Shown piece after piece: positions 11,194-58,652 of a stretch of DNA of 64,000 nucleotides. The position numbers were made by a program, and so were the translations under genes. Every line of letters begins with the position of its first letter. The stretch's first letter is position 1. A model generated the notes under the pieces. The model did no database searches. It had not been told where the DNA came from and saw only the letters and a list, made by a program, of their open reading frames with translations. This DNA is from Millisia brevis NBRC 105863 (lineage in GTDB: Bacteria > Actinomycetota > Actinomycetes > Mycobacteriales > Mycobacteriaceae): positions 248,001 through 312,000 of the forward strand of contig NZ_BCRN01000003.1 in NCBI RefSeq assembly GCF_001552615.1, written 5' to 3'.

Positions 11194-12399
11194 TCACAGC
11201 GGGCGCGGGTCGGCGTCCGCGGTTCCGAGCGTGAGCGGAAGGTGAGAGATCGAGCGAATGAAATCGGTGTGCCCGTAGGTGACCGGGCCGGCCGGTCGCA
11301 CCCCGTCGAATCGTTCGGTAATCGTGCGGAAGACGACCTCGGCCTCGGCACGGGCGAGGACCTGACCGGCGCAGCCGTGCAGCCCACCGCCGAACGCGAG
11401 GTGCTTGGCCTTGGAGTTGTCGCGCCGGAAATCGAAGACGTCCGGATCGGGGAAGACCTCGGGATCCTTGTTCGCCGCGGATATCAGCAGGATGAGGATC
11501 TCCCCCGCCGGGATGTCGACGTCACCGACGGTCACCGGCTGGGTCGTCATCCGGGTGATGAACTGTTCGGGCGTGTCGATGCGCAACGTCTCCTCGACGA
11601 TCGCCGCCCGCACGCTCTCGTCGTCCCGGTAGGCCCGCGCGATCTCGGGGTGTTCGGCGAACAGGCGCAACCCGTGCACGATCAGATAGCCGATGTCGAG
11701 GTGTCCGACGGCGAAGATCAGCGTCAGCGTGCCGACAACCTCCTCGTGGGTCAGGTCCCCGGTCGCCTCCATCGCCAGCAACGACGACAGCAGGCCGTCC
11801 GGGGAGGCCGCGGTGTGCAGGGTCACGAGGTGCTCGGCGTGACCGACGAACCAGTCCATCGCCTCGACGACCCCCGCGAGTTCGTCCTCGGTGGGGTTGG
11901 TGCCCAGACCGGCGCCCAGATCGTAGGTGGCCGTGCGCACTCCGATGGCCTCGAGTGGGGGGATGCCGATCAGATCGCAGACGGTGCGGAAGGTCACCGG
12001 ATAGGCGAGGTCCAGCACGGCGTCGAATGTGCCACCGCGGGAGACGATGTCGGCGAGTACGTCGTCGAGATGCCGTTGGGTGTGCGCACGCCAGGTCTGC
12101 ACCGCCTTGGGGGTGAACCATTTGTTGAGCACGCGGCGCAGCGTCGTGTGGCGGGGGACGTCGGCGCCGAGGGCGCTGTCGTGCAGCGGGGCGGCGGGGC
12201 CGAAGTCGATCTGCTCGACCGACAGGCTGCGGTCGTAGGCGAGCTTCGCGACGTCCTCGTAGCGGGTCAGCACCCACATGCCGAGCGGGTGCCGGTAGAC
12301 GGGCGCGAGGTCCCTGGCGCGCGCGTAGTAGGGGTACGGGTCGGCACGAAAGTCCGGGGAGTCGAACGGCAGCAGATTGTCGATCGGGTGGGTACTCAC
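11194..12399 (-). CDS. Cytochrome P450
   Basis: A 401-residue soluble bacterial P450. It has the ExxR motif (EETLR), the PERF-equivalent region (PDPDVFDFRRDN) and the haem loop FGGGLHGCAGQ with Cys343 as axial ligand. The I-helix is unusual: where most P450s have A-G-x-D/E-T-T this one reads AVGHLDIG, so the conserved acid-alcohol pair is absent. The gene follows a flavodoxin, a ferredoxin reductase and an amino acid permease on the same strand. This suggests a self-contained oxygenase system for an imported amine or amino-acid-like compound. The substrate is unknown. Confidence 0.93.
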   Translation of the reverse strand: MSTHPIDNLLPFDSPDFRADPYPYYARARDLAPVYRHPLGMWVLTRYEDVAKLAYDRSLSVEQIDFGPAAPLHDSALGADVPRHTTLRRVLNKWFTPKAVQTWRAHTQRHLDDVLADIVSRGGTFDAVLDLAYPVTFRTVCDLIGIPPLEAIGVRTATYDLGAGLGTNPTEDELAGVVEAMDWFVGHAEHLVTLHTAASPDGLLSSLLAMEATGDLTHEEVVGTLTLIFAVGHLDIGYLIVHGLRLFAEHPEIARAYRDDESVRAAIVEETLRIDTPEQFITRMTTQPVTVGDVDIPAGEILILLISAANKDPEVFPDPDVFDFRRDNSKAKHLAFGGGLHGCAGQVLARAEAEVVFRTITERFDGVRPAGPVTYGHTDFIRSISHLPLTLGTADADPRPL

Positions 12400-12429: not shown

Positions 12430-12882
12430 TCAGATCGCGGTGGGCAGCGTGACCGTCGCTTGCGCCCAGGCGGTCGCAAGTTCGGCGGCGTCGTCGAAGC
12501 CGGCGGCGTCGTGGCGGCCGTACTCGCCGATCCGGGTGGCGCCGAGGTCGTCGAGCAGCGCGACGAGATGCTCGCTGCCCTTGCTGTAGCTCTCGGCGTA
12601 GCCGCTGTCGCCGAGCCCGAAGATCGCGTAGCGAACGCCCGCGAGATCGGGCCGGTCGGAGGCGAGTTGGTCGACGAAGGGCTGCGCCGACGCGGGAAGC
12701 TCACCCTCGCCGTACGTGGAGCAGACAATCAGGTGCAGGTCGTCGCGGGAGAGCCCGGCGGGGTCGGTGTCCTGCAGATCGGCGACACTGACCTCGCCCG
12801 TATCGGTCAGGGCGCCGGCGATGTCGTCGGCGATCATCTCGGAGTTGCCGGATTCGGTGCCGTAGAGAATGCGGATGGTCAT
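12430..12882 (-). CDS. Flavodoxin
   Basis: A 150-residue FMN electron carrier. The phosphate loop is TESGNSEMIADDI at residues 9-21. The FMN-flanking loops CSTYGEGELPASAQPF and FGLGDSGYAESYSKG also match. It probably passes electrons from the reductase encoded immediately upstream to the P450 encoded immediately downstream. ATG at 12882 overlaps the reductase stop codon (ATGA). A flavodoxin is less common than a [3Fe-4S] ferredoxin as P450 partner in actinobacteria. Confidence 0.93.
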   Translation of the reverse strand: MTIRILYGTESGNSEMIADDIAGALTDTGEVSVADLQDTDPAGLSRDDLHLIVCSTYGEGELPASAQPFVDQLASDRPDLAGVRYAIFGLGDSGYAESYSKGSEHLVALLDDLGATRIGEYGRHDAAGFDDAAELATAWAQATVTLPTAI

Positions 12883-14147
12883 GCGGGCGGCCTTTCGGTC
12901 GGGACGATCGCTGTCGCATCGTCGAGGGTGGGATCTGTTGCCGCGGCGAGGAGTTCGCCGGCAGTCAGGAACTTCCGGCGGGCCCGATCGGAATCGGCGG
13001 CCGAGATCTCGGCCCGGTCGATGCGCCGCCACCGCTCGAAGTCGACGGGGGTGAACGGCAGCACGTCGCGCAGTGCGGCCAATCCGCCGCGATCCGGCCC
13101 CGTCTCGGATGCGAGGTGGGCATCGATCTCGGCTGCGACGCGCCTGCCGTCCGCGCGGGCGTCGGGCAGGGCGCCGCGCGGCCCGAAATGTGCCCAACCG
13201 GCGGTGAAGACACCGGGTGGGCGATCGACTCCCACCGGGTCGGACCCGCTACCGGCCGCGAACCCGATCGCGGTGATCACCGCGGTCGCCGGGATGACCA
13301 CTACGCCGCCGTCGACATCGGCGACTCGGACGCCGGCGACCCGGTCATCGCCGACGAAGCCGAGCGGCGCAGCTCCGAACCGCAGTTCGACGGTGAGCCG
13401 ATGATCGTCGGTGTGACAGCCGGGCAGTTCGGCGATCGCGCGGGCCGCGGCCGACCCCTGCGTACAGGTCTGCCCGGTCACCTCGAACCGCAGCCCGCCG
13501 ATCCGACCGAGTTCGTTGATCATCGCCGCCGCGCAGCGCACCTCGGCCTGGGCGGAGCGGGCCAGCAGGGTGATGCGCTCGATGCCACCGGTCAACGTGG
13601 CCGCCTCGGTGTCCGGGTGCAGGTCGCTGCCGCGGCGATCCTCGGCCCGCCCGGCGAGCAGACGCACCACGTCGATCGCGACATTGCCGGCGCCGATCAC
13701 CACCACATCGGTCCCCGGGTCGCACGCATCGAGGGCCTGGTCGGGATAGCCGTTGAGGTAGCGGGTGAACGCGCCGGAACCGTGCACGCCCACCAGGGAT
13801 TCACCCGGGAGACCGAGAACTCGATCGGCCGGCAGTCCGGTGGCGATCACCACCGCGTCGAAGAGCTCCCGCAGCGTCTCCAGCGTGACATCCCGACCGA
13901 CGGCGACATTCCCTGCGAAGCCGACCGCATCGCGTTCGAAGAGCCGGTCGAACTGCTTGGTGACGTTCTTCGTCCCCTGGTGATCGGCGGCGATCCCGTA
14001 GCGCACCAGCCCGTAGGGGACGGGCAGGCGCTCGATGACGGTGATCTTGGCATCCGGCCGCAGTCGGCGCAGGGCCTGCGCGGTATAGCAACCGGCCGGA
14101 CCGCTGCCGACGATCGCCACCGACCCCGGCCGCCGGTCGGCGCCCAT
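12879..14147 (-). CDS. NADPH:ferredoxin/adrenodoxin-type reductase (FprA-like)
   Basis: A 422-residue FAD- and NADPH-binding reductase of the adrenodoxin reductase family. The FAD motif VAIVGSGPAGCYTAQAL is at residues 10-26, followed by PVPYGLVRYGIAADHQGTK, a family signature. The NADP site GAGNVAIDVVRLLAG is near residue 155, and GWAHFGPRGALPDAR near the C-terminus is also typical. It would reduce the flavodoxin encoded downstream (ATGA overlap) for the P450. Its ATG overlaps the permease stop as TGATG. Confidence 0.93.
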   Translation of the reverse strand: MGADRRPGSVAIVGSGPAGCYTAQALRRLRPDAKITVIERLPVPYGLVRYGIAADHQGTKNVTKQFDRLFERDAVGFAGNVAVGRDVTLETLRELFDAVVIATGLPADRVLGLPGESLVGVHGSGAFTRYLNGYPDQALDACDPGTDVVVIGAGNVAIDVVRLLAGRAEDRRGSDLHPDTEAATLTGGIERITLLARSAQAEVRCAAAMINELGRIGGLRFEVTGQTCTQGSAAARAIAELPGCHTDDHRLTVELRFGAAPLGFVGDDRVAGVRVADVDGGVVVIPATAVITAIGFAAGSGSDPVGVDRPPGVFTAGWAHFGPRGALPDARADGRRVAAEIDAHLASETGPDRGGLAALRDVLPFTPVDFERWRRIDRAEISAADSDRARRKFLTAGELLAAATDPTLDDATAIVPTERPPA

Positions 14148-15583
14148 CAGGCGTCCTGTTCGCTGATCGCGGCCGGAGCGCGCACGGCCCCGGAGCGCAG
14201 CCGGGACACCAGACAACCGGCGAGGAACATCACCGGCACCGTTGCGAGCAGCAGCCATCCGGTGGGACCGGTACTGCCGGTGAGCATCCCGAACTGGGTG
14301 ACGATCAGATAGAGCTCGCCGACCATCAGCACCGTCGCGGCGACCGGGGCGATCAGCGTCGTCCAGATGTTCGCCTCGACGCGGGTGCGGCGGAAGTAGA
14401 CGACGATCGCCACCGAGGACAGCACGTAGAGCAACACCAGAGCCGCCACGGCGACGCCGCTGAACCACGCGAACAGTGTCCGCGACGGATCGAGTCCGGC
14501 GATCGCAAAGGGCATCACCAGGATCAGCGCGACCACGGTCTGCGCCAGCGACGCTGCCGCCGGAGCGTGCCGATCGTTGGTATGCGCAAGCCGCCGCGGC
14601 AGGTATCCGCGGTCGGCGAGCGAGTGCACGTAGCGGGTCACCATGTTGTGGAAGGCCAGCACGCCGGCCAACAGCGAGGTGCACAGCAGGATTTGCGCGG
14701 CGGTCGCGGCCCACGGACCCAGTACCGCTGTCAGCGGTTCGAGCACGAACATCGCCGGGTCGTCGGCCAGCGTCGCGAGAGCGGCGTCCTGCACATCGCC
14801 GGAGCCGTAGTAGGCGACGATCATCCACACGACGAAGGCGAAGAAGATCGCGATCGAGACGACCGACAGATAGGTCGCCCGCGGCACGGTCCGTCGGGGG
14901 TCCCGCGCTTCGCCGCTGTAGATCGCGGTCGATTCGAAGCCGAACATCGAGGCGATCGCGAACAGGATCGCCACGCCCGGGGTACCCACCGCAATCGCGG
15001 AGGGCGCGAAGCTCGCGCCGATGTCGAGATCACCCCAGCCGGTGGTGACCAGAACCACAAACGAAAATGCCAGCAGGATAGCCACTTCGGCGATAACGAG
15101 GACCGACAGGACGCGGGCCCCGAGTTCGATACCGCGGGTGCCGAGCGCCCAGACCACTGCGATCGCGGCGACCGCGTAGATCCACCAGGCCATCGCCGGG
15201 AACATTCCGGCCAGCGTGGCCCCGAGAAGCCCGTACATGGCGGCTTGGATCGTGTTGTAGGACCAGAGCGCGAGAAATGCTCCGCCGGTGCCGATCCCGC
15301 GCCCGAGGCCGGCCTGCACGATCGGGTAGAAACCGCCTCGGGTGTCGATATGCCGCGAGATCGTAGTGAAACCGACCGCGAACAGGATGATCACCAGGCC
15401 GACGAGCAGATAGGCGCCGGGTGCGCCGGCGCCGTTGCCGAGGGCCACCGAGTAGGCGACGGCGCCCACGATGCCGGTCAGCGGCGCCTGGGCGGAGAAG
15501 ACGAAGAACAGGATGGCCGGGACTCCGAGCGTGTTGCGCTTCAACGTGATCGTCGGGGTCGCCGGCTCCGTGGAATTGGTCAT
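14147..15583 (-). CDS. APC-superfamily amino acid permease
   Basis: A 478-residue transporter with about 12 helices. The family pattern is visible in SAQAPLTGIVGAVAYSVALGNG (helix 1), FGFESTAIYSGEARDPRRTVPRATYLSV (helix 6 and its loop) and NMVTRYVHSLADRGYLPRRLAHT (helix 8 region). ATG at 15583 follows GGAG at a good distance. It is the first gene of the permease-reductase-flavodoxin-P450 operon, so it probably imports the P450 substrate, most likely an amine or amino acid derivative. A regulatory element shared with the cupin gene lies upstream at 15700-15722. Confidence 0.92.
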   Translation of the reverse strand: MTNSTEPATPTITLKRNTLGVPAILFFVFSAQAPLTGIVGAVAYSVALGNGAGAPGAYLLVGLVIILFAVGFTTISRHIDTRGGFYPIVQAGLGRGIGTGGAFLALWSYNTIQAAMYGLLGATLAGMFPAMAWWIYAVAAIAVVWALGTRGIELGARVLSVLVIAEVAILLAFSFVVLVTTGWGDLDIGASFAPSAIAVGTPGVAILFAIASMFGFESTAIYSGEARDPRRTVPRATYLSVVSIAIFFAFVVWMIVAYYGSGDVQDAALATLADDPAMFVLEPLTAVLGPWAATAAQILLCTSLLAGVLAFHNMVTRYVHSLADRGYLPRRLAHTNDRHAPAAASLAQTVVALILVMPFAIAGLDPSRTLFAWFSGVAVAALVLLYVLSSVAIVVYFRRTRVEANIWTTLIAPVAATVLMVGELYLIVTQFGMLTGSTGPTGWLLLATVPVMFLAGCLVSRLRSGAVRAPAAISEQDA

Positions 15584-15699
15584 GGGGTCTCCAGGAACGG
15601 ATGCAGGTACTGCGGGACAGGAGGATTGCCGTCGGTTCGAGACCCTGCGGTGCACGTGGCGTCGAGCTGTGGCTCCAACAACTGTGCAAACGCATAGCC

Positions 15700-15722
15700 A
15701 AACTTGTCAATCGCATAGTTTC
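15700..15722 (-). promoter_or_regulatory. Shared promoter/operator element upstream of the permease-P450 operon
   Basis: Read on the minus strand it is GAAACTATGCGA followed by TTGACAAGTTT. TTGACA is a perfect -35 box, and AAACT/AGTTT are inverted arms. A copy with one difference lies before the cupin gene (16486-16509). A second CTATGCG follows 20 bases downstream on the same strand. The element would let one regulator, probably the TetR protein encoded between the two copies, occlude both promoters. Confidence 0.72.
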
Positions 15723-15880
15723 TCTCGCAACGAATCGTTTACCTGCGGCAATGGTTCCGAAACCGGCGAAGGCCCGCGGAAACCGGCTCGAAATGCGCGG
15801 CCGACGACCTTCCCGGGTACGACTGCGCGTCCGCGTAGCCTGACCGGAGGACATCACGGCCACGAGAGGCGGACGAGCGG

Positions 15881-16444
15881 ATGGGCAGTCTTGCTTACGG
15901 CACGGGACGGCAGGCCCTCCTCGACGCGACGATCAGCATCGTCGCCACCGGGGGCCTGCGGAGCCTGACCTATCGGGCGGTCGCGGCGGAGGCGGGTGTC
16001 ACACAGGGCCTCGTGCGCCATCACTTCGGGGACTGGGAGACCCTCGTCCACGAAGCCGCCGTCTATTCGGTCCGCAAAAGCCTCGACACCGCGGGCTTCG
16101 AGACCGATGAGCCCGGCTACCGACGCCTCTCCCCCGAGATGATCGACCTGGTCGCCGGCGACCGAGACCTCCAGGCCTTCCAATTCGAACTCGCCCTCGA
16201 GGCCCGACGGCGGCCGGAACTGCTGCCCGTCCTGACCAGCGTCTACGAGGTCTACCGCGAGGCCATGCGACGCGAACTGGCGCGCAACGGTATCGACGAT
16301 CCCGATCTCGCCTGGGCGGCCTTCGCCGCTCTCGACGGCATCGTTTTCCAACTGACCGTCTTCGGCGACCACGAGGCGGCATCCCGCGCGCTCGGATCGC
16401 TGCGGGCACTGTTGATCTCCCGGTCGGAGGCCGGCGCCCGGTAG
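15881..16444 (+). CDS. TetR-family transcriptional regulator
   Basis: A 187-residue regulator. The helix-turn-helix occupies residues 10-55 (ALLDATISIVATGGLRSLTY through AGVTQGLVRHHFGDWETLVHEA), and the ligand domain follows. It lies between the minus-strand permease-P450 operon and the plus-strand cupin gene, each with the same 23-base element in its promoter. That layout indicates it regulates both, and the ligand is probably the P450 or permease substrate. It has no copy of the element close to its own start. Confidence 0.92.
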   Translation: MGSLAYGTGRQALLDATISIVATGGLRSLTYRAVAAEAGVTQGLVRHHFGDWETLVHEAAVYSVRKSLDTAGFETDEPGYRRLSPEMIDLVAGDRDLQAFQFELALEARRRPELLPVLTSVYEVYREAMRRELARNGIDDPDLAWAAFAALDGIVFQLTVFGDHEAASRALGSLRALLISRSEAGAR

Positions 16445-16485
16445 GTGCGCATCGCCGATCGGTGACGGGAATCTCGTCCGTTCGC

Positions 16486-16509
16486 GAAACTATGCGCTTG
16501 ACAAGTTTC
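16486..16509 (+). promoter_or_regulatory. Shared promoter/operator element upstream of the cupin gene
   Basis: GAAACTATGCGC followed by TTGACAAGTTTC. The outer six bases (GAAACT/AGTTTC) are inverted, and TTGACA can serve as the -35 box. It matches the element at 15700-15722 (opposite strand) at 22 of 23 positions. This sits about 55 bases before the cupin start codon. Confidence 0.72.
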
Positions 16510-16561
16510 GTGGAATGCGCAGACACTGAAGCACTCCCCCTTCTTCACGAAAGGTCGCGCC

Positions 16562-16933
16562 GTGTCCGTCGCACCCGAAGCTCTTCTGAAATTTGATGTC
16601 GACCTCGTCGACGCTCTCGATGTACCGGTATCCACCGAGGCCCCGCCGCACGTCCACCCCTTCGGGTCGCCGACCTTCGGCCTGCTGCCGCTCGCGGGTC
16701 CCGAGGACGGGACCGGATTCGTGGCGATCTGGACCGCGGACCGGGACGGCTTCGACTACGACCCGATCCCCGAGCCGGAGGCCGCCTTCATCCTGTCGGG
16801 CGTCCTGCGCCTCACCCCGGTCGGCGGCGAGAGCGTCGACGTGACCGCGGGTGAGGGGTACCGGCTGCCGGAGGGCTGGGCCGGCAGGATCGAAGCCGTC
16901 GAGCCGGTCACGAAGGTGTACGTCCTGCTCTAG
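16562..16933 (+). CDS. Cupin-domain protein
   Basis: A 123-residue single-cupin protein of the DUF861/EutQ-like type. The barrel strands are visible as EAAFILSGVLRLTPVGGESVDVTAGEGYRLPEGWAG (residues 78-113). The classical His metal ligands of motif 1 are not evident (PEPEAAFILSG), so it may bind a ligand without metal or use other residues. It shares its promoter element with the permease-P450 operon, so it is likely part of the same metabolic unit, as an isomerase or small-molecule binder. That role is inference. Confidence 0.8.
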   Translation: MSVAPEALLKFDVDLVDALDVPVSTEAPPHVHPFGSPTFGLLPLAGPEDGTGFVAIWTADRDGFDYDPIPEPEAAFILSGVLRLTPVGGESVDVTAGEGYRLPEGWAGRIEAVEPVTKVYVLL

Positions 16934-16970
16934 CTTCCACACCTCCGTTTTTCATACGCCGATGCGCCGA

Positions 16971-17006
16971 TCGATGGTGAGGGACCGCCGCGTCCCTCAC
17001 CATCGA
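16971..17006. terminator. Perfect 15-bp hairpin between the cupin and LuxR-type genes
   Basis: TCGATGGTGAGGGAC (16971-16985) and its exact reverse complement (16992-17006) enclose the six-base loop CGCCGC. It ends 18 bases before the chosen start of the next gene. There is no T-run after it; a GTTTTT run lies about 20 bases before it. It may terminate cupin transcription or act as a regulatory structure in the leader of the LuxR-type gene. Confidence 0.6.
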
Positions 17007-17024
17007 AGGATGAGAAGAGGTGAC

Positions 17025-18314
17025 GTGCCGGCCGTGCCACCGACCGCAGGCCCCGTCGACGGCCGGATCGACGGCCGGGACGCCGCGACGATCGCACGGC
17101 TGTCCCCGCTGGTCGCCGCCCCGCTCGACGACATCGCCGCCTGCCTGCGCGAGGTGGTCGTCGATGTCGTTCCGCATCGCGCGTTGCTGATCTTCACCGA
17201 GGACTGCACCGGCCGCCCCCAGAAGACGGCGGGCGATCCGACGATCATCGATCGGGCGACGCTGTCCGAGTTGGCGCAGATCCGCTCGACGCTGCAAGCG
17301 GGCACGGTGGATTCCGGGGCGGTCGGCGGCGCGGAACGGCCGATCCACGCCCTGCTCGCCGGGACCGGGGCGCTGCTGGTGCTCTGCGAACCGGGCCCGA
17401 CCGCGCTCGACACGGACGCCGGGGCGTTCCTGCGGGCGGTCTGGGAGGTGGTCGCGGCGCGTATTCGGCACCGGGTCGCGGAGGCCGATCCGTCCTATCT
17501 GCGGAGGTCGCGCGCGGTCTCGGTCGAGCGGCAGCGGGCGACGGCGGAGTTGACCGAACGCCACGCCGCGGATCTCGAATCGGTGCTCGCCGTGCTGCGC
17601 AGTCGCGATCTCGACGACACCCGGGCACGGACGGTGGCGACCACCGTCGCGACCGACGCGCTGATCCTGGCGCGGGCGGCCAACGACCTGGTGGTGACGA
17701 TCACCGAGGAACCCGTCTCGCGGGCCTTCGAACGACTTCGGCACGATCTGAGCCCGTTGGCGCGCTTCGGCAGGGTGCAGATGCAGTTCGTCGAGCCGCC
17801 GACCGATGGCCGGGCGTTGCCGGGCGAGGTCGCCCACGCGGCGCGCGCCATCGTGCGCACGGCGGTCCTGGCGATCAACGAACAGGACGATGTCGGTCGG
17901 GTCCGAGTCCAATGGGGTTGCGATGGAGCACGTTTGCTGATCGGACTGCGCGACGACGGGCCGGGTCGGCTCACCGCGAGCGATCCCGCGTTCCGGGAGC
18001 TCAACGCCCGGGTCAAGGCGCTCGGGGGCACGGCGGTCTTCGACATCGTGCCCGACTGGGGTACCGCGATCGACGTGAGCATCCCCTTGGACCCGCCGCA
18101 GAACGCCGAGGCGCCGGCGGAGTGGGACCTCGGGCCGCGGGAGGCCGACGTGCTGCGCCTGCTGGTCGCCGGGAAGCGCAACCGGCAGATCGCCGCCGAG
18201 TTGGGCATCAGCGAGAACACCGTCAAGACGCATGTCGGGCAGCTCTACCGCAAGCTCGGCGTCACCTCGCGGGCGGCCGCGATCGCCAAGGCGATCGGCG
18301 CGAACGAGCTCTGA
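17025..18314 (+). CDS. LuxR-type response regulator with histidine-kinase-like ATPase domain
   Basis: A protein of about 429 residues. The C-terminus is a LuxR/GerE helix-turn-helix (LGPREADVLRLLVAGKRNRQ, then AAELGISENTVKTHVGQLYRKLG). In the middle, LLIGLRDDGPGRLTASDPAFR and later LNARVKALGGTAVFDIVPDWGTAIDVSIPL resemble the G1 and G2 boxes of a HATPase_c domain as in sensor kinases. The N-terminal part is GAF-like in position but not recognisable. No phosphoacceptor histidine box is evident. GTG at 17025 follows AAGAGGTGA; ATG at 17010 is the alternative. The target genes are unknown. Confidence 0.82.
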   Translation: MPAVPPTAGPVDGRIDGRDAATIARLSPLVAAPLDDIAACLREVVVDVVPHRALLIFTEDCTGRPQKTAGDPTIIDRATLSELAQIRSTLQAGTVDSGAVGGAERPIHALLAGTGALLVLCEPGPTALDTDAGAFLRAVWEVVAARIRHRVAEADPSYLRRSRAVSVERQRATAELTERHAADLESVLAVLRSRDLDDTRARTVATTVATDALILARAANDLVVTITEEPVSRAFERLRHDLSPLARFGRVQMQFVEPPTDGRALPGEVAHAARAIVRTAVLAINEQDDVGRVRVQWGCDGARLLIGLRDDGPGRLTASDPAFRELNARVKALGGTAVFDIVPDWGTAIDVSIPLDPPQNAEAPAEWDLGPREADVLRLLVAGKRNRQIAAELGISENTVKTHVGQLYRKLGVTSRAAAIAKAIGANEL

Positions 18315-18393: not shown

Positions 18394-19020
18394 TCACGCG
18401 ATGGCGGCGCGCAGTTCGCGGGCAGCCGCGGAGGGGTCGGCGGCGCTGTAGATCGCGCCACCGACCACCGCGACGCGGGCGCCGGCCTTCTGCACGTCGG
18501 CGATCGTGTCGACGGTGACGCCGCCGGCGACCGAGAAGGGCACCTGCGCCGTCGATCCCGCGGTCAGCAGGGTCTCGAGGCTGAAGCCCGGCTGGGCCTG
18601 CTCGTCGAGCCCGGCGTGGAATTCGACGAAGTCGACACCGAGGGCGTGAACCTCGCGGGCGCGGGCGGCCTTGTCCTCGACGCCGATCAGGTCGACGACG
18701 ATGCCCTTGCCCTTCTCCTTGGCGACGCCGACGGCCCCGACGATCGTGGAGTCGTCCGCGGAGCCGAGCACGGTCACCAGATCGGCGCCGGCGTCGAAGG
18801 CGATCCGCGCCTCGAGTGCGCCGGCGTCGGCGGTCTTCAGGTCGGCGAAGACGGTCTTGTCGGGATGCGCGCCCTTGATCGCGCGGATCACCGCCAGGCC
18901 TTCACTCTTGATCAGCGGGGTGCCCAGTTCGATGATGTCGACGTGCGGGGCCACCGCGGCGGCCAGCTCGAGGGCGGCGTCGGTGCTGAGCAGGTCGATC
19001 GCCACTTGCAGCTCGGTCAT
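18394..19020 (-). CDS. hxlA: 3-hexulose-6-phosphate synthase
   Basis: A 208-residue (beta/alpha)8 protein of the orotidine decarboxylase suprafamily. It condenses formaldehyde with ribulose 5-phosphate to give D-arabino-3-hexulose 6-phosphate, the first step of the RuMP route. The motifs AIDLLSTDAALELA, HVDIIELGTPLIKSEG, FADLKTADAGALEA and SVAGGVTVDTIADV are typical; the Asp and Lys of DLKTAD are the expected catalytic residues. ATG at 19020 follows AAAGGAA. It is the second gene after hxlB, 23 bases downstream, and the two are probably co-transcribed. Confidence 0.93.
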   Translation of the reverse strand: MTELQVAIDLLSTDAALELAAAVAPHVDIIELGTPLIKSEGLAVIRAIKGAHPDKTVFADLKTADAGALEARIAFDAGADLVTVLGSADDSTIVGAVGVAKEKGKGIVVDLIGVEDKAARAREVHALGVDFVEFHAGLDEQAQPGFSLETLLTAGSTAQVPFSVAGGVTVDTIADVQKAGARVAVVGGAIYSAADPSAAARELRAAIA

Positions 19021-19043: not shown

Positions 19044-19628
19044 TCACTCGAGGTTCGCGTGCCGAGCCCAGAGCTCCTCGGCGGGCGCTCCGGTTCGGCG
19101 CCACAGGGTGTGGAAGAGCGCATCGCCGAGCACCAGCACGGACTGCTCGAAGAGCGAGCCCGCGTACTGCTGCGACGCCGCCGACGCCAGGTCGGTCTTG
19201 GCGGCCGCGGGCACGACGACCACCACCCGGGCGTCGCGTGCGGCGGGCGAGGTCGGGTCGGTGGTGAAGACGACGGTCGAGGCTCCGACCGCGGCGGCGG
19301 TGGTCGCCGCCCGCACGATCGAGGCGGTGGTGCCCGATCCGGAGGCGAGGACCAGGACGTCTCGGTCGCCGAGCGCCGGAGTTGTTGTCTCGCCGACGAT
19401 GTGGACCTCGATGCCGAGATGCATCAGCCGCATCCCCAAGGCCCGCAACGCGATTCCGGATCGTCCGAGACCGAGGACGAAGACCCGCCGCGCTCCTTCG
19501 ATCGCGTCGGCGGCCGCGGCCAGGTCGTCCGGCCGCACCGCCAGAACGGTGCGCGTGATCTCGTCCAGCACGAGTTCGGTGTGCGAACGAACGTGTGGGG
19601 CGATGGTCGGATCCAGCGTGGCGCTCAT
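19044..19628 (-). CDS. hxlB: 6-phospho-3-hexuloisomerase
   Basis: A 194-residue SIS-domain sugar isomerase that converts hexulose 6-phosphate from HxlA into fructose 6-phosphate, completing formaldehyde fixation. The SIS features are VFVLGLGRSGIALRALGMRL (about residues 50-69), GSGTTASIVRAA with the Ser/Thr phosphate-binding residues, and FEQSVLVLGDALFHTL near the C-terminus. The start at 19628 (MSATLD) fits the family length; the frame is open a little further upstream. The gene order hxlB-hxlA with no regulator alongside suggests a formaldehyde detoxification unit. Confidence 0.93.
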   Translation of the reverse strand: MSATLDPTIAPHVRSHTELVLDEITRTVLAVRPDDLAAAADAIEGARRVFVLGLGRSGIALRALGMRLMHLGIEVHIVGETTTPALGDRDVLVLASGSGTTASIVRAATTAAAVGASTVVFTTDPTSPAARDARVVVVVPAAAKTDLASAASQQYAGSLFEQSVLVLGDALFHTLWRRTGAPAEELWARHANLE

Positions 19629-26623: not shown

Positions 26624-27112
26624 TCACCGATCGACCGTGAGCATCGCGATCAGTGGCGTCGGATCCAGAGTGGTCTCACCGCGCAACAGCGCGTCGAGCA
26701 CCAGTCCGTCCAGTGCGGCGACCAGACGGCGGGCGACGTCGGGAGCACATCCCGCGTCGATCAGCGTCGCCACAAAGACATCCCGGCCGGCGACGAGCCG
26801 GTCCGCCAACTCGGGGCGCCCGAACGCCAGCAGGGTCAACTCGTAGCGCGCACGGGTCACGGTTCGCTGCGGCCCGAGCCACCGCGCGCATACCTCGGCC
26901 GGGCTCTCTCCGGGCCGCGGGCGGTCGACGTCGACGAGATGAGCGACCAGCGCGTCGAGGAAGCCGTCGAACGAGCCGAAGTGATAACGCACGCTGCCGT
27001 GCGGAACCGCGGCCCGATCCTCCGCGGCCCTGGCGGACGCGCGCGCCGACCCGACAGTGCCGAGCAATTCCAGGCCGGCATCCAGCAAGCGTTCACGCGA
27101 GCTCTTCTCCAC
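26624..27112 (-). CDS. TetR-family transcriptional regulator
   Basis: A 162-residue regulator. The N-terminal helix-turn-helix reads SRERLLDAGLELLGTVGSAR followed by VPHGSVRYHFGSFDGFLDALVAHL; the usual turn is somewhat degenerate (ASARAAEDRAA). GTG at 27112 gives a normal N-terminus, and this codon lies inside an 18-bp palindrome, so the protein would cover its own start region when bound. It is divergent from an FAD monooxygenase gene with a second palindrome in between. The inducer is unknown. Confidence 0.85.
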   Translation of the reverse strand: MEKSSRERLLDAGLELLGTVGSARASARAAEDRAAVPHGSVRYHFGSFDGFLDALVAHLVDVDRPRPGESPAEVCARWLGPQRTVTRARYELTLLAFGRPELADRLVAGRDVFVATLIDAGCAPDVARRLVAALDGLVLDALLRGETTLDPTPLIAMLTVDR

Positions 27113-27121
27113 ATGGAGAAG
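27104..27121. promoter_or_regulatory. TetR operator, site 1
   Basis: CTTCTCCA-CA-TGGAGAAG, eight-base perfect arms with a two-base centre. It overlaps the GTG start codon of the TetR gene. A sister site lies 31 bases away centre to centre, three helical turns. Confidence 0.75.
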
Positions 27122-27134
27122 TTTAGCTACGCTA

Positions 27135-27152
27135 TTTCTCCATGTGGAGAAA
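27135..27152. promoter_or_regulatory. TetR operator, site 2
   Basis: TTTCTCCA-TG-TGGAGAAA, eight-base perfect arms with a two-base centre, the same core as site 1. It lies 43 bases before the chosen start of the FAD monooxygenase gene. Confidence 0.75.
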
Positions 27153-27194
27153 TCGAGCGACCGGCGTGTGCGCCCCATCGCGGGAGGCGACGCC

Positions 27195-56735: not shown

Positions 56736-58652
56736 ATGACCATCGCCCCGGTCGGTACCGCCCAGTCCATCCTCGGCAGTCTGAGCGAGGAGGAGATCCT
56801 CACCGCTCGCACCGTTCTCACCGACGCCGGCCTGGTGACGCCCACCACCCGGTTCGTCTACGTCGGCCTGGCCGAGCCGGACAAGTCGGATGTTCTGGCG
56901 CACCTGGCCGGCGACGGCCCCGCACCCGAGCGCCGCGCCCGTGTGATGCTGCTCGACATCGCGACCGGCGACGCCGCCGACACCCTGATCTCACTGGCGA
57001 CCGGTTCGCTGTTGTCGTCCGCACAGATCGATCCGGAAATCGGTCAACTACCGATCCTCGACGAGGAGTTCACGATCGTCGCGGAGTTCCTCGCCGACGA
57101 TCCGCAGTGGGGCGAAGCGCTCCGCAAGCGCGGTGTCGACCCGGCCAAGACCGTCGCCGTGCCGCTGTCGGCGGGCAGCTACGACAACCCGAACGAGGCC
57201 GGCAAGCGCATCATCCGGTCCTTCGCGTTCGTGATGAACGACGAGAAGGACCTGCCCTGGGCGCATCCGGTCGACGGCCTCTGCGCCTACGTCGACATCA
57301 TCGCCCGCGAGGTGATCGACATCGTCGACTACCGCCTCTACGAGGTGCCGCAGGAGTCCGGCAACTTCGACACCCCCGAGGTCGCCGGCGAACCGCTGGA
57401 AGGCCTCAAGCCGATCGAGATCACCCAGCCCGAGGGGCCGAGTTTCACGGTCGACGGTGAGCACGTCGACTGGCTCACCTGGAGCTTCGATCTGTCCTTC
57501 GACGCCCGCGAGGGATTGATCCTGCGGCGGCTGAAGTACCAGGACCGGGACGTGATCTACCGCGCCTCGATCAACGAGATGGTCGTCCCCTACGGTGACC
57601 CGTCCCCGAACCGCTACTGGCAGAACTACTTCGACACCGGCGAGTACGTCTTCGGCAGGTACACCAACTCGTTGACGCTCGGCTGCGACTGTCTCGGCGA
57701 GATCCACTACTTCGACGCGACGTTGGCCGACGAGCAGGGCGCCCCGCGCACGATCACCAATGCGATCTGCATGCACGAGGAGGACTACGGCACCCTCTGG
57801 AAGCACAGCGACATCTTCAACGGGATGTCCGAGGTGCGCCGCCAACGCCGCCTGGTGATCAGCTTCTTCACCACCGTCGGCAACTACGACTACGGCTTCT
57901 ACTGGTACCTCTACCTCGACGGCACCATCGAACTCGAGGCCAAGCTGACCGGTGTCGCGTTCACCGCCGCCTACCCCGAGGAGGGGTCGGACTACCAGAG
58001 CGCGGTCGCTCCCGGGCTCGGTCTGCCGTATCACCAGCATCTGTTCAACGCGCGGCTCGACATGATGGTCGACGGCACCGCCAACGCGGTCGAGGAGGTC
58101 GACGCGGTCTCGGTGCCGATGGGCGAGGGCAACCCGTGGGGCAACGCCTTCACCCTGCGCAAGACCCGCATCACCGAGGAGTCCGAGGGGTCGCGGCGGG
58201 CGAACGCGGAGGTGGGCCGCACCTGGCACATCATCAACACCGAGAAGACCGGCCGGATGGGCCACCACCCGTCGTACGCGTTGTACGCGCAGCAGAATCC
58301 GACGCTGCTGGCCGACCCGCAGTCGTCGATCGCCAAGCGTGCCGCCTTCACCACCAACCAGGTGTGGGTCACCAAGTACGACGTCGACGAGCGCTACGCG
58401 GCGGGCGATTACGTCAATCAGAGCAGCGGTGTCGCCGGGGTGAACACCTACCAGGAGGCGAACCGGCCGCTCGACGGCGAGGACATCGTCGTCTGGCATA
58501 CCTTCGGGATCACGCACTTCCCGCGCACCGAGGATTGGCCGATCATGCCGGTCGACTACTCGGGCTTCACCCTCAAGCCGTACAACTTCGTCGACAAGTC
58601 CCCGGTGATGAACGTGCCGTCGACCGCGGCGAAGCACTGCCACCACCACTGA
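56736..58652 (+). CDS. Copper-containing primary-amine oxidase
   Basis: A 638-residue quinoprotein. Tyr384 of TTVGNYDYG is the TPQ precursor, Asp300 of NYFDTGEY the general base, and His433 and His435 (PYHQHLFNARLD) two copper ligands; the third is probably in GITHFPRTEDW. N2 and N3 domains precede the catalytic sandwich. It oxidises primary amines to aldehydes with release of ammonia and peroxide. No signal peptide is evident, so it is cytoplasmic. It follows kstR at 143 bases and has its own possible promoter. Confidence 0.94.
   Translation: MTIAPVGTAQSILGSLSEEEILTARTVLTDAGLVTPTTRFVYVGLAEPDKSDVLAHLAGDGPAPERRARVMLLDIATGDAADTLISLATGSLLSSAQIDPEIGQLPILDEEFTIVAEFLADDPQWGEALRKRGVDPAKTVAVPLSAGSYDNPNEAGKRIIRSFAFVMNDEKDLPWAHPVDGLCAYVDIIAREVIDIVDYRLYEVPQESGNFDTPEVAGEPLEGLKPIEITQPEGPSFTVDGEHVDWLTWSFDLSFDAREGLILRRLKYQDRDVIYRASINEMVVPYGDPSPNRYWQNYFDTGEYVFGRYTNSLTLGCDCLGEIHYFDATLADEQGAPRTITNAICMHEEDYGTLWKHSDIFNGMSEVRRQRRLVISFFTTVGNYDYGFYWYLYLDGTIELEAKLTGVAFTAAYPEEGSDYQSAVAPGLGLPYHQHLFNARLDMMVDGTANAVEEVDAVSVPMGEGNPWGNAFTLRKTRITEESEGSRRANAEVGRTWHIINTEKTGRMGHHPSYALYAQQNPTLLADPQSSIAKRAAFTTNQVWVTKYDVDERYAAGDYVNQSSGVAGVNTYQEANRPLDGEDIVVWHTFGITHFPRTEDWPIMPVDYSGFTLKPYNFVDKSPVMNVPSTAAKHCHHH

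Follow-up and report, generated by a model that had tools for sequence, protein, structure and literature searches.

A repeated palindrome on both sides of a TetR-family gene, a probable operator for a flavodoxin-P450 operon and a cupin gene in Millisia brevis

The window, a stretch of 64,000 nucleotides from Millisia brevis NBRC 105863, contains two copies of a short TTGACA-bearing element, in opposite orientations, with a TetR-family gene between them. One copy precedes an operon for a permease, a reductase, a flavodoxin and a cytochrome P450, and the other precedes a cupin gene. The features of the locus are listed here in order of position.

11194-12399, minus strand: cytochrome P450 (p450); best solved matches 8q5j and XplA
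12430-12882, minus strand: flavodoxin (Flavodoxin_1); best solved match cindoxin, 4oxx
12879-14147, minus strand: FAD-dependent reductase (Pyr_redox_2)
14147-15583, minus strand: APC-family amino acid/amine permease (AA_permease_2), first gene of the operon
15679-15700, minus strand: O2, candidate weaker second operator TGGCTATGCGTTTGCACAGTTG, half-sites CTATGC and CTGTGC, found by matrix match
15700-15722, minus strand (read 15722-15700): putative operator O1, GAAACTATGCGATTGACAAGTTT, with TTGACA, before the permease-reductase-flavodoxin-P450 operon
15881-16444, plus strand: TetR-family regulator (TetR_N and TetR_C_31), proposed to bind the element
16486-16508, plus strand: putative operator before the cupin gene, GAAACTATGCGCTTGACAAGTTT, with TTGACA
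16562-16933, plus strand: EutQ-like small cupin (Cupin_3)
16971-17006, plus strand: strong hairpin after the cupin gene, without a T run (z -5.7, -32 kcal/mol)
17010-18314, plus strand: LuxR-type (GerE) regulator, start codon uncertain
18394-19020, minus strand: 3-hexulose-6-phosphate synthase HxlA, formaldehyde fixation (TIGR03128, above cut-off)
19044-19628, minus strand: 6-phospho-3-hexuloisomerase HxlB (TIGR03127, above cut-off)

Read from the tetR side, the minus-strand operon runs permease, reductase, flavodoxin, P450, with tetR and the cupin gene on the opposite strand. The permease and reductase genes overlap by a few bases, as do the reductase and flavodoxin genes; the gap between the flavodoxin and P450 genes is 30 bases. 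The TetR protein scores 34 bits to PF00440 (TetR_N; cut-off 24) and, in its C-terminal part, 69.9 bits to PF17940 (TetR_C_31). The I-helix of the P450 reads GHLDIG, with Ile where P450cam has Thr252. The hairpin, which has 15 base pairs and lies between the cupin and LuxR genes, is probably the terminator of the cupin transcript.

Direct comparison of O1 with the cupin-side copy shows 22 of 23 bases to be identical, confirming the inverted match described in the first-pass annotation of this DNA; the inverted AAACT and AGTTT arms that it reported are present as AAACT-N12-AGTTT. As a whole, the element forms an imperfect palindrome of 22 bp, AAACTATGCG-M-TTGACAAGTTT. The 5.65-Mb genome (5,646,340 bases) has no copies beyond these two, even when up to three mismatches are allowed. 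No other inverted pair matching at 22 of 23 positions within 1 kb occurs in the window, and a comparable pair appeared in 0 of 60 simulated windows (order-2 Markov). The hexamer TTGACA occurs three times in the 64 kb, against 8.9 expected, and two of the three occurrences sit in copies of the element. Chance pairing was rejected in view of the genome-wide uniqueness, the simulations and the conservation in Herbiconiux described below. An RNA-element reading of the repeat was also rejected, Rfam giving no match over 15400-17200. The candidate O2 adjoins O1, 21 bp away and downstream of the TTGACA of O1. It ranks third in the 64 kb by a matrix of window and Herbiconiux sites and fourth by a combined matrix; no counterpart was seen in the Herbiconiux upstream regions.

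Among about 85,000 species genomes, the only close relative of the P450, at 79% identity, is found in Herbiconiux daphne, which belongs to another order (Micrococcales). Its cluster has cupin, TetR, permease, reductase, flavodoxin and P450 genes arranged as in the window, followed by a copper amine oxidase gene. Identities are 61% for TetR, 76-80% for the cupin, 68% for the permease, 64% for the reductase and 72% for the flavodoxin. A LuxR-type gene is present in this cluster too, and HxlA/HxlB genes lie close by in both genomes. The element precedes the permease gene as AAACTATGCAATTGACAAGTTT and the cupin gene as CAACTACGCGATTGACAAGTTT, co-occurring at both sites with the TetR, P450 and cupin genes, and has no copy elsewhere in the 5.3 Mb. 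Neither element-bearing genome has it at unrelated genes; in each, one copy precedes the permease operon, one precedes the cupin gene, and there are no others. When the upstream regions of the two species are aligned, the element is the best-conserved block, and its conservation runs past the -35 hexamer into both arms. At strict cut-offs, no further members of the cluster were found in 400 genomes of the window's family (P450 search), 400 genomes of the Herbiconiux family or 395 genomes of the class (cupin search); with no others in several hundred genomes, the cluster is therefore rare and sporadic. The reductase of the Herbiconiux cluster (locus L004, 7876-9522) carries a fused N-terminal HtaA (heme-transport-associated) domain, absent from the window reductase.

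A consensus scan found no complete sigma-70 promoter at either copy in the window, and for this reason TTGACA is treated as a presumptive -35 box. Of the perfect -35 box claimed in the first-pass annotation, the hexamer itself is thus borne out in both copies, and its -35 role is presumed. The hexamers spaced 18 nt from TTGACA are GACACT, CACAGT, GAGACT and GAACAT (two from the window, two from Herbiconiux). All four share an A as second base and a T as sixth; the consensus scan gave no -10 match at 16-18 nt. Because the -10 boxes are poor, promoter activity at both copies is an assumption. A sigma-54 or plain sigma-70 promoter as the whole account of the element was rejected, the consensus being incomplete and the conservation pattern wrong. 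O1 lies inside the 297-bp divergent region between tetR and the permease gene and may therefore act on tetR as well.

Related TetR proteins are encoded in a Streptomyces homoprotocatechuate/gamma-glutamylamine cluster, seen on a plasmid of S. canus and in chromosomal relatives, which resembles the window in TetR, P450, permease and same-register operators. Genomes whose clusters show 69-99% identity to the S. canus cluster, and which share one genus label, are called Streptomyces here. What the S. canus plasmid cluster has in common with the window is only the TetR (about 47% identity), the P450 (49%) and the APC permease (49%). A recognition region GVTxGLVxHHFG is common to the TetR proteins of the window, Herbiconiux and Streptomyces. 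The Streptomyces clusters have a ferredoxin where the window has a flavodoxin; they carry gamma-glutamylation genes, the HpaD pathway, and FolD and PurU in place of the RuMP enzymes HxlA/HxlB. No cupin gene was found in them.

The exact palindrome TATCCGYATGGATA is confined, within the S. canus plasmid of 139.6 kb, to two promoters of the cluster, those of the P450 gene and of glutamine synthetase/ferredoxin. At the Streptomyces P450 promoter, a palindrome of the type TTATCCGNNTGGATAA follows directly on TTGACG, between the -35 and the presumed -10, and at the ferredoxin operon one precedes TTGACC, that is, before the -35. A related site, CTTGTCAAACGGATAGTTC, lies upstream of the permease gene in reversed orientation. 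Eight further Streptomyces genomes retain these sites in varied form. On alignment at the dyad centre, the window half TATGCGM falls exactly on the Streptomyces half TATCCGN; the left half-site is TATGC in the window versus TATCC in Streptomyces, a difference that counts against the operator reading.

Matrix scans link the site to the TetR family. One matrix was built solely from Streptomyces sites at P450 and ferredoxin promoters, picked without reference to the window. Among 127,958 positions, it ranks the window elements directly behind a tandem pair of palindromes at 27.1 kb. That pair (27102-27123 and 27133-27154; CTCTTCTCCACATGGAGAAGTT and TATTTCTCCATGTGGAGAAATC), strong, similar to one another and 31 bp apart, is probably the operator of another regulator. 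The reverse test used a matrix of the four window and Herbiconiux sites only, scanned over nine further loci whose TetR relatives are 42-50% identical to that of the window. The top match fell within about 300 bp of tetR at all nine. At five of these loci none of 200 simulations reached the score of the site, and at the other four, where sites are moderate, one to three did. Sites also accompany TetR relatives where neither P450 nor LuxR gave a hit. We rely on the P450-ferredoxin matrix and the reverse test because the matrix of Streptomyces permease sites is partly circular, its first site having been found by scanning with the window matrix. At loci L038, L041 and L042, and more weakly at L039, a pair of overlapping sites with a spacing of 16 bp accompanies the TetR relative. 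Often one site of the pair is palindromic and its partner contains the hexamer TTGACA or TTGTCA; this arrangement suggests that two dimers may bind cooperatively.

By these comparisons of sequence, the TetR encoded between the two copies very probably binds the element; it is the sole regulator common to all of these clusters and for that reason taken as the binder. The best explanation of the locus, and one that we hold with good confidence, is that the element serves as operator for the intervening TetR, lies over the presumed -35 box of two promoters and would keep both transcripts repressed. The first-pass annotation had proposed one TetR in control of permease, reductase, flavodoxin, P450 and cupin, and the predicted sites in Herbiconiux, in Streptomyces and at the nine further loci support that proposal.

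Sites of this kind, TetR operators, are already known. The window shares with TetR-family repressors at divergent promoters the domain architecture, the divergent gene, an apparent operator over promoter elements and a local regulon, although the nearest solved relatives, 3iuv and EbrA (3hta), are only weakly similar to the window TetR (E about 1e-9). Unlike the known layout, the window operator would serve two separate transcripts of a P450/cupin cluster. When inducer is absent, a TetR dimer would block RNA polymerase at the permease-operon and cupin promoters; an inducer, probably the imported substrate or its product, would bind TetR and release both transcripts. O1 would serve the permease operon and possibly tetR, and the second copy the cupin gene. 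The unit so controlled would import a small amine for oxidation by the flavodoxin-driven P450, most likely by a demethylation that releases formaldehyde for the neighbouring HxlA and HxlB to fix.

The same TetR and sites might instead serve activation, or repression of tetR alone, but we think either unlikely. Weak -10 boxes would suit an activated promoter, yet the operator lies over the -35 here and downstream of the -35 at the Streptomyces P450 promoters, which are typical positions for repression. The location of O1 in the divergent tetR/permease region would fit a repressor of tetR only, but the copy before the cupin gene cannot serve tetR autoregulation. We give still less weight to binding of the element by the neighbouring LuxR-type regulator or by an unlinked protein, with the TetR sites elsewhere. 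A LuxR gene does adjoin the cluster in both the window and Herbiconiux; none, however, was found in the Streptomyces clusters, which have same-register palindromes, and the sites follow TetR relatives to the loci mentioned above where LuxR and P450 hits are lacking. Because LuxR is absent from the Streptomyces clusters, it is an unlikely binder, which leaves TetR as the one regulator accompanying the sites throughout.

It is very improbable that the element is a mere strong -35 region shared by two constitutive promoters that have no regulator. The perfect TTGACA in both copies speaks for such a region, but conservation extends beyond the hexamer to both arms, the Streptomyces motif varies in its position relative to the promoter and is in places reversed, and TTGACA is under-represented in the window. 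Scarcely any credence can be given to an accidental origin of the two copies by recent duplication or from a mobile repeat: near-identical as they are, their similarity stops at the element edges, neither genome has extra copies, and the occurrence in another order of the same two-copy layout with diverged flanks, in Herbiconiux, contradicts accident.

The enzymes of the putatively TetR-controlled unit are unfused homologues of the RDX-degrading XplA and XplB. The window P450 is homologous to XplA (CYP177; plasmid pGKT2 of Gordonia sp. KTR9), with 39% identity over 386 residues and 283 bits to the XplA structure 2wiv. The flavodoxin is 47% identical to the XplA flavodoxin domain, the reductase is 39% identical to the XplB region of pGKT2, and the only plasmid match of the cupin is a 44% homologue from the same pGKT2 region as xplA. 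XplA is described as an RDX-denitrating P450 in which the Asp/Glu-Thr pair has been lost and to whose N-terminus a flavodoxin is fused (PMC8081977), whereas in the window the flavodoxin is a separate gene (12430-12882). The I-helix motif is GHLDIG in the window and GHMAIG in XplA: Thr is absent from both, and Asp is kept in the window where XplA has Ala. Unlike the xpl system, the window has a reductase that is not fused to glutamine synthetase, and a TetR rather than the GntR/FCD regulator found beside the xpl genes. The P450cin/cindoxin system is similar in its flavodoxin, cindoxin being the best solved match, and in its separate FAD reductase. Compared with P450cin, XplA and the Streptomyces scabiei P450 8q5j are nearer to the window P450, and the permease, cupin and TetR context differs from that of P450cin/cindoxin.

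Where the operator site recurs beside TetR relatives in other actinobacteria, it is mostly next to amine-degrading genes. The copper amine oxidase genes of Herbiconiux and of the window and the gamma-glutamylation genes of Streptomyces are likewise amine-processing. A flavin amine oxidase and an EutQ-like cupin accompany two other TetR relatives, and at the Streptomyces clusters a second TetR of the family faces a gene for a GcvT-like demethylase. We favour methylated-amine catabolism because the neighbours are amine oxidases, formaldehyde-fixing RuMP enzymes and one-carbon genes; the cluster would take up a methylated amine, demethylate it oxidatively and recover the formaldehyde. A homologue of the Streptomyces homoprotocatechuate dioxygenase (HpaD) was not found in the Millisia genome by a weak search, run without a positive control. 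The ring-degrading part is therefore apparently not shared, and the substrate may differ from that in Streptomyces.

A broader proposal, which we advance tentatively and at somewhat less than even confidence, is that a TetR subfamily marked by operators of the type CTATSC-N4-GNNNAG is devoted to the control of methylated-amine catabolism in actinobacteria, and that the window carries a chromosomal counterpart of XplA/XplB, unfused and under native control. If this is true, XplA-type P450s would natively carry out the oxidative demethylation of a methylated amine from plants or soil, and the RuMP pathway would receive the formaldehyde. The inducer of the window TetR should point to the natural substrate, offering a route to that native function.

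In the literature searched, outside which most subscription papers lie, we found no description of the operator sequence, the regulon or a tie to XplA-type P450s, and nothing matching on hordenine or methoxytyramine P450 demethylases, XplR or a TetR/cupin/amine-oxidase regulon. The first-pass annotation stated that no described regulon of such make-up is known; the XplA/XplB link, the formaldehyde-fixing genes and the amine-catabolism context go beyond that annotation. The proposed operator and regulon are recognisable across actinobacterial orders, and a flavodoxin-P450 cluster is tied to formaldehyde fixation and amine uptake.

Two further genes may be mentioned. The window has a copper amine oxidase gene of its own (56736-58652), 40 kb from the cluster, whose product is 50% identical to the copper amine oxidase encoded after the P450 in Herbiconiux; a matrix scan gave no operator match beside it. 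Elsewhere in the Millisia genome, a second TetR of the family (locus L050, contig C13, 3602-6682) is encoded near an N-methyltryptophan/sarcosine oxidase-type gene, with a weak site upstream.
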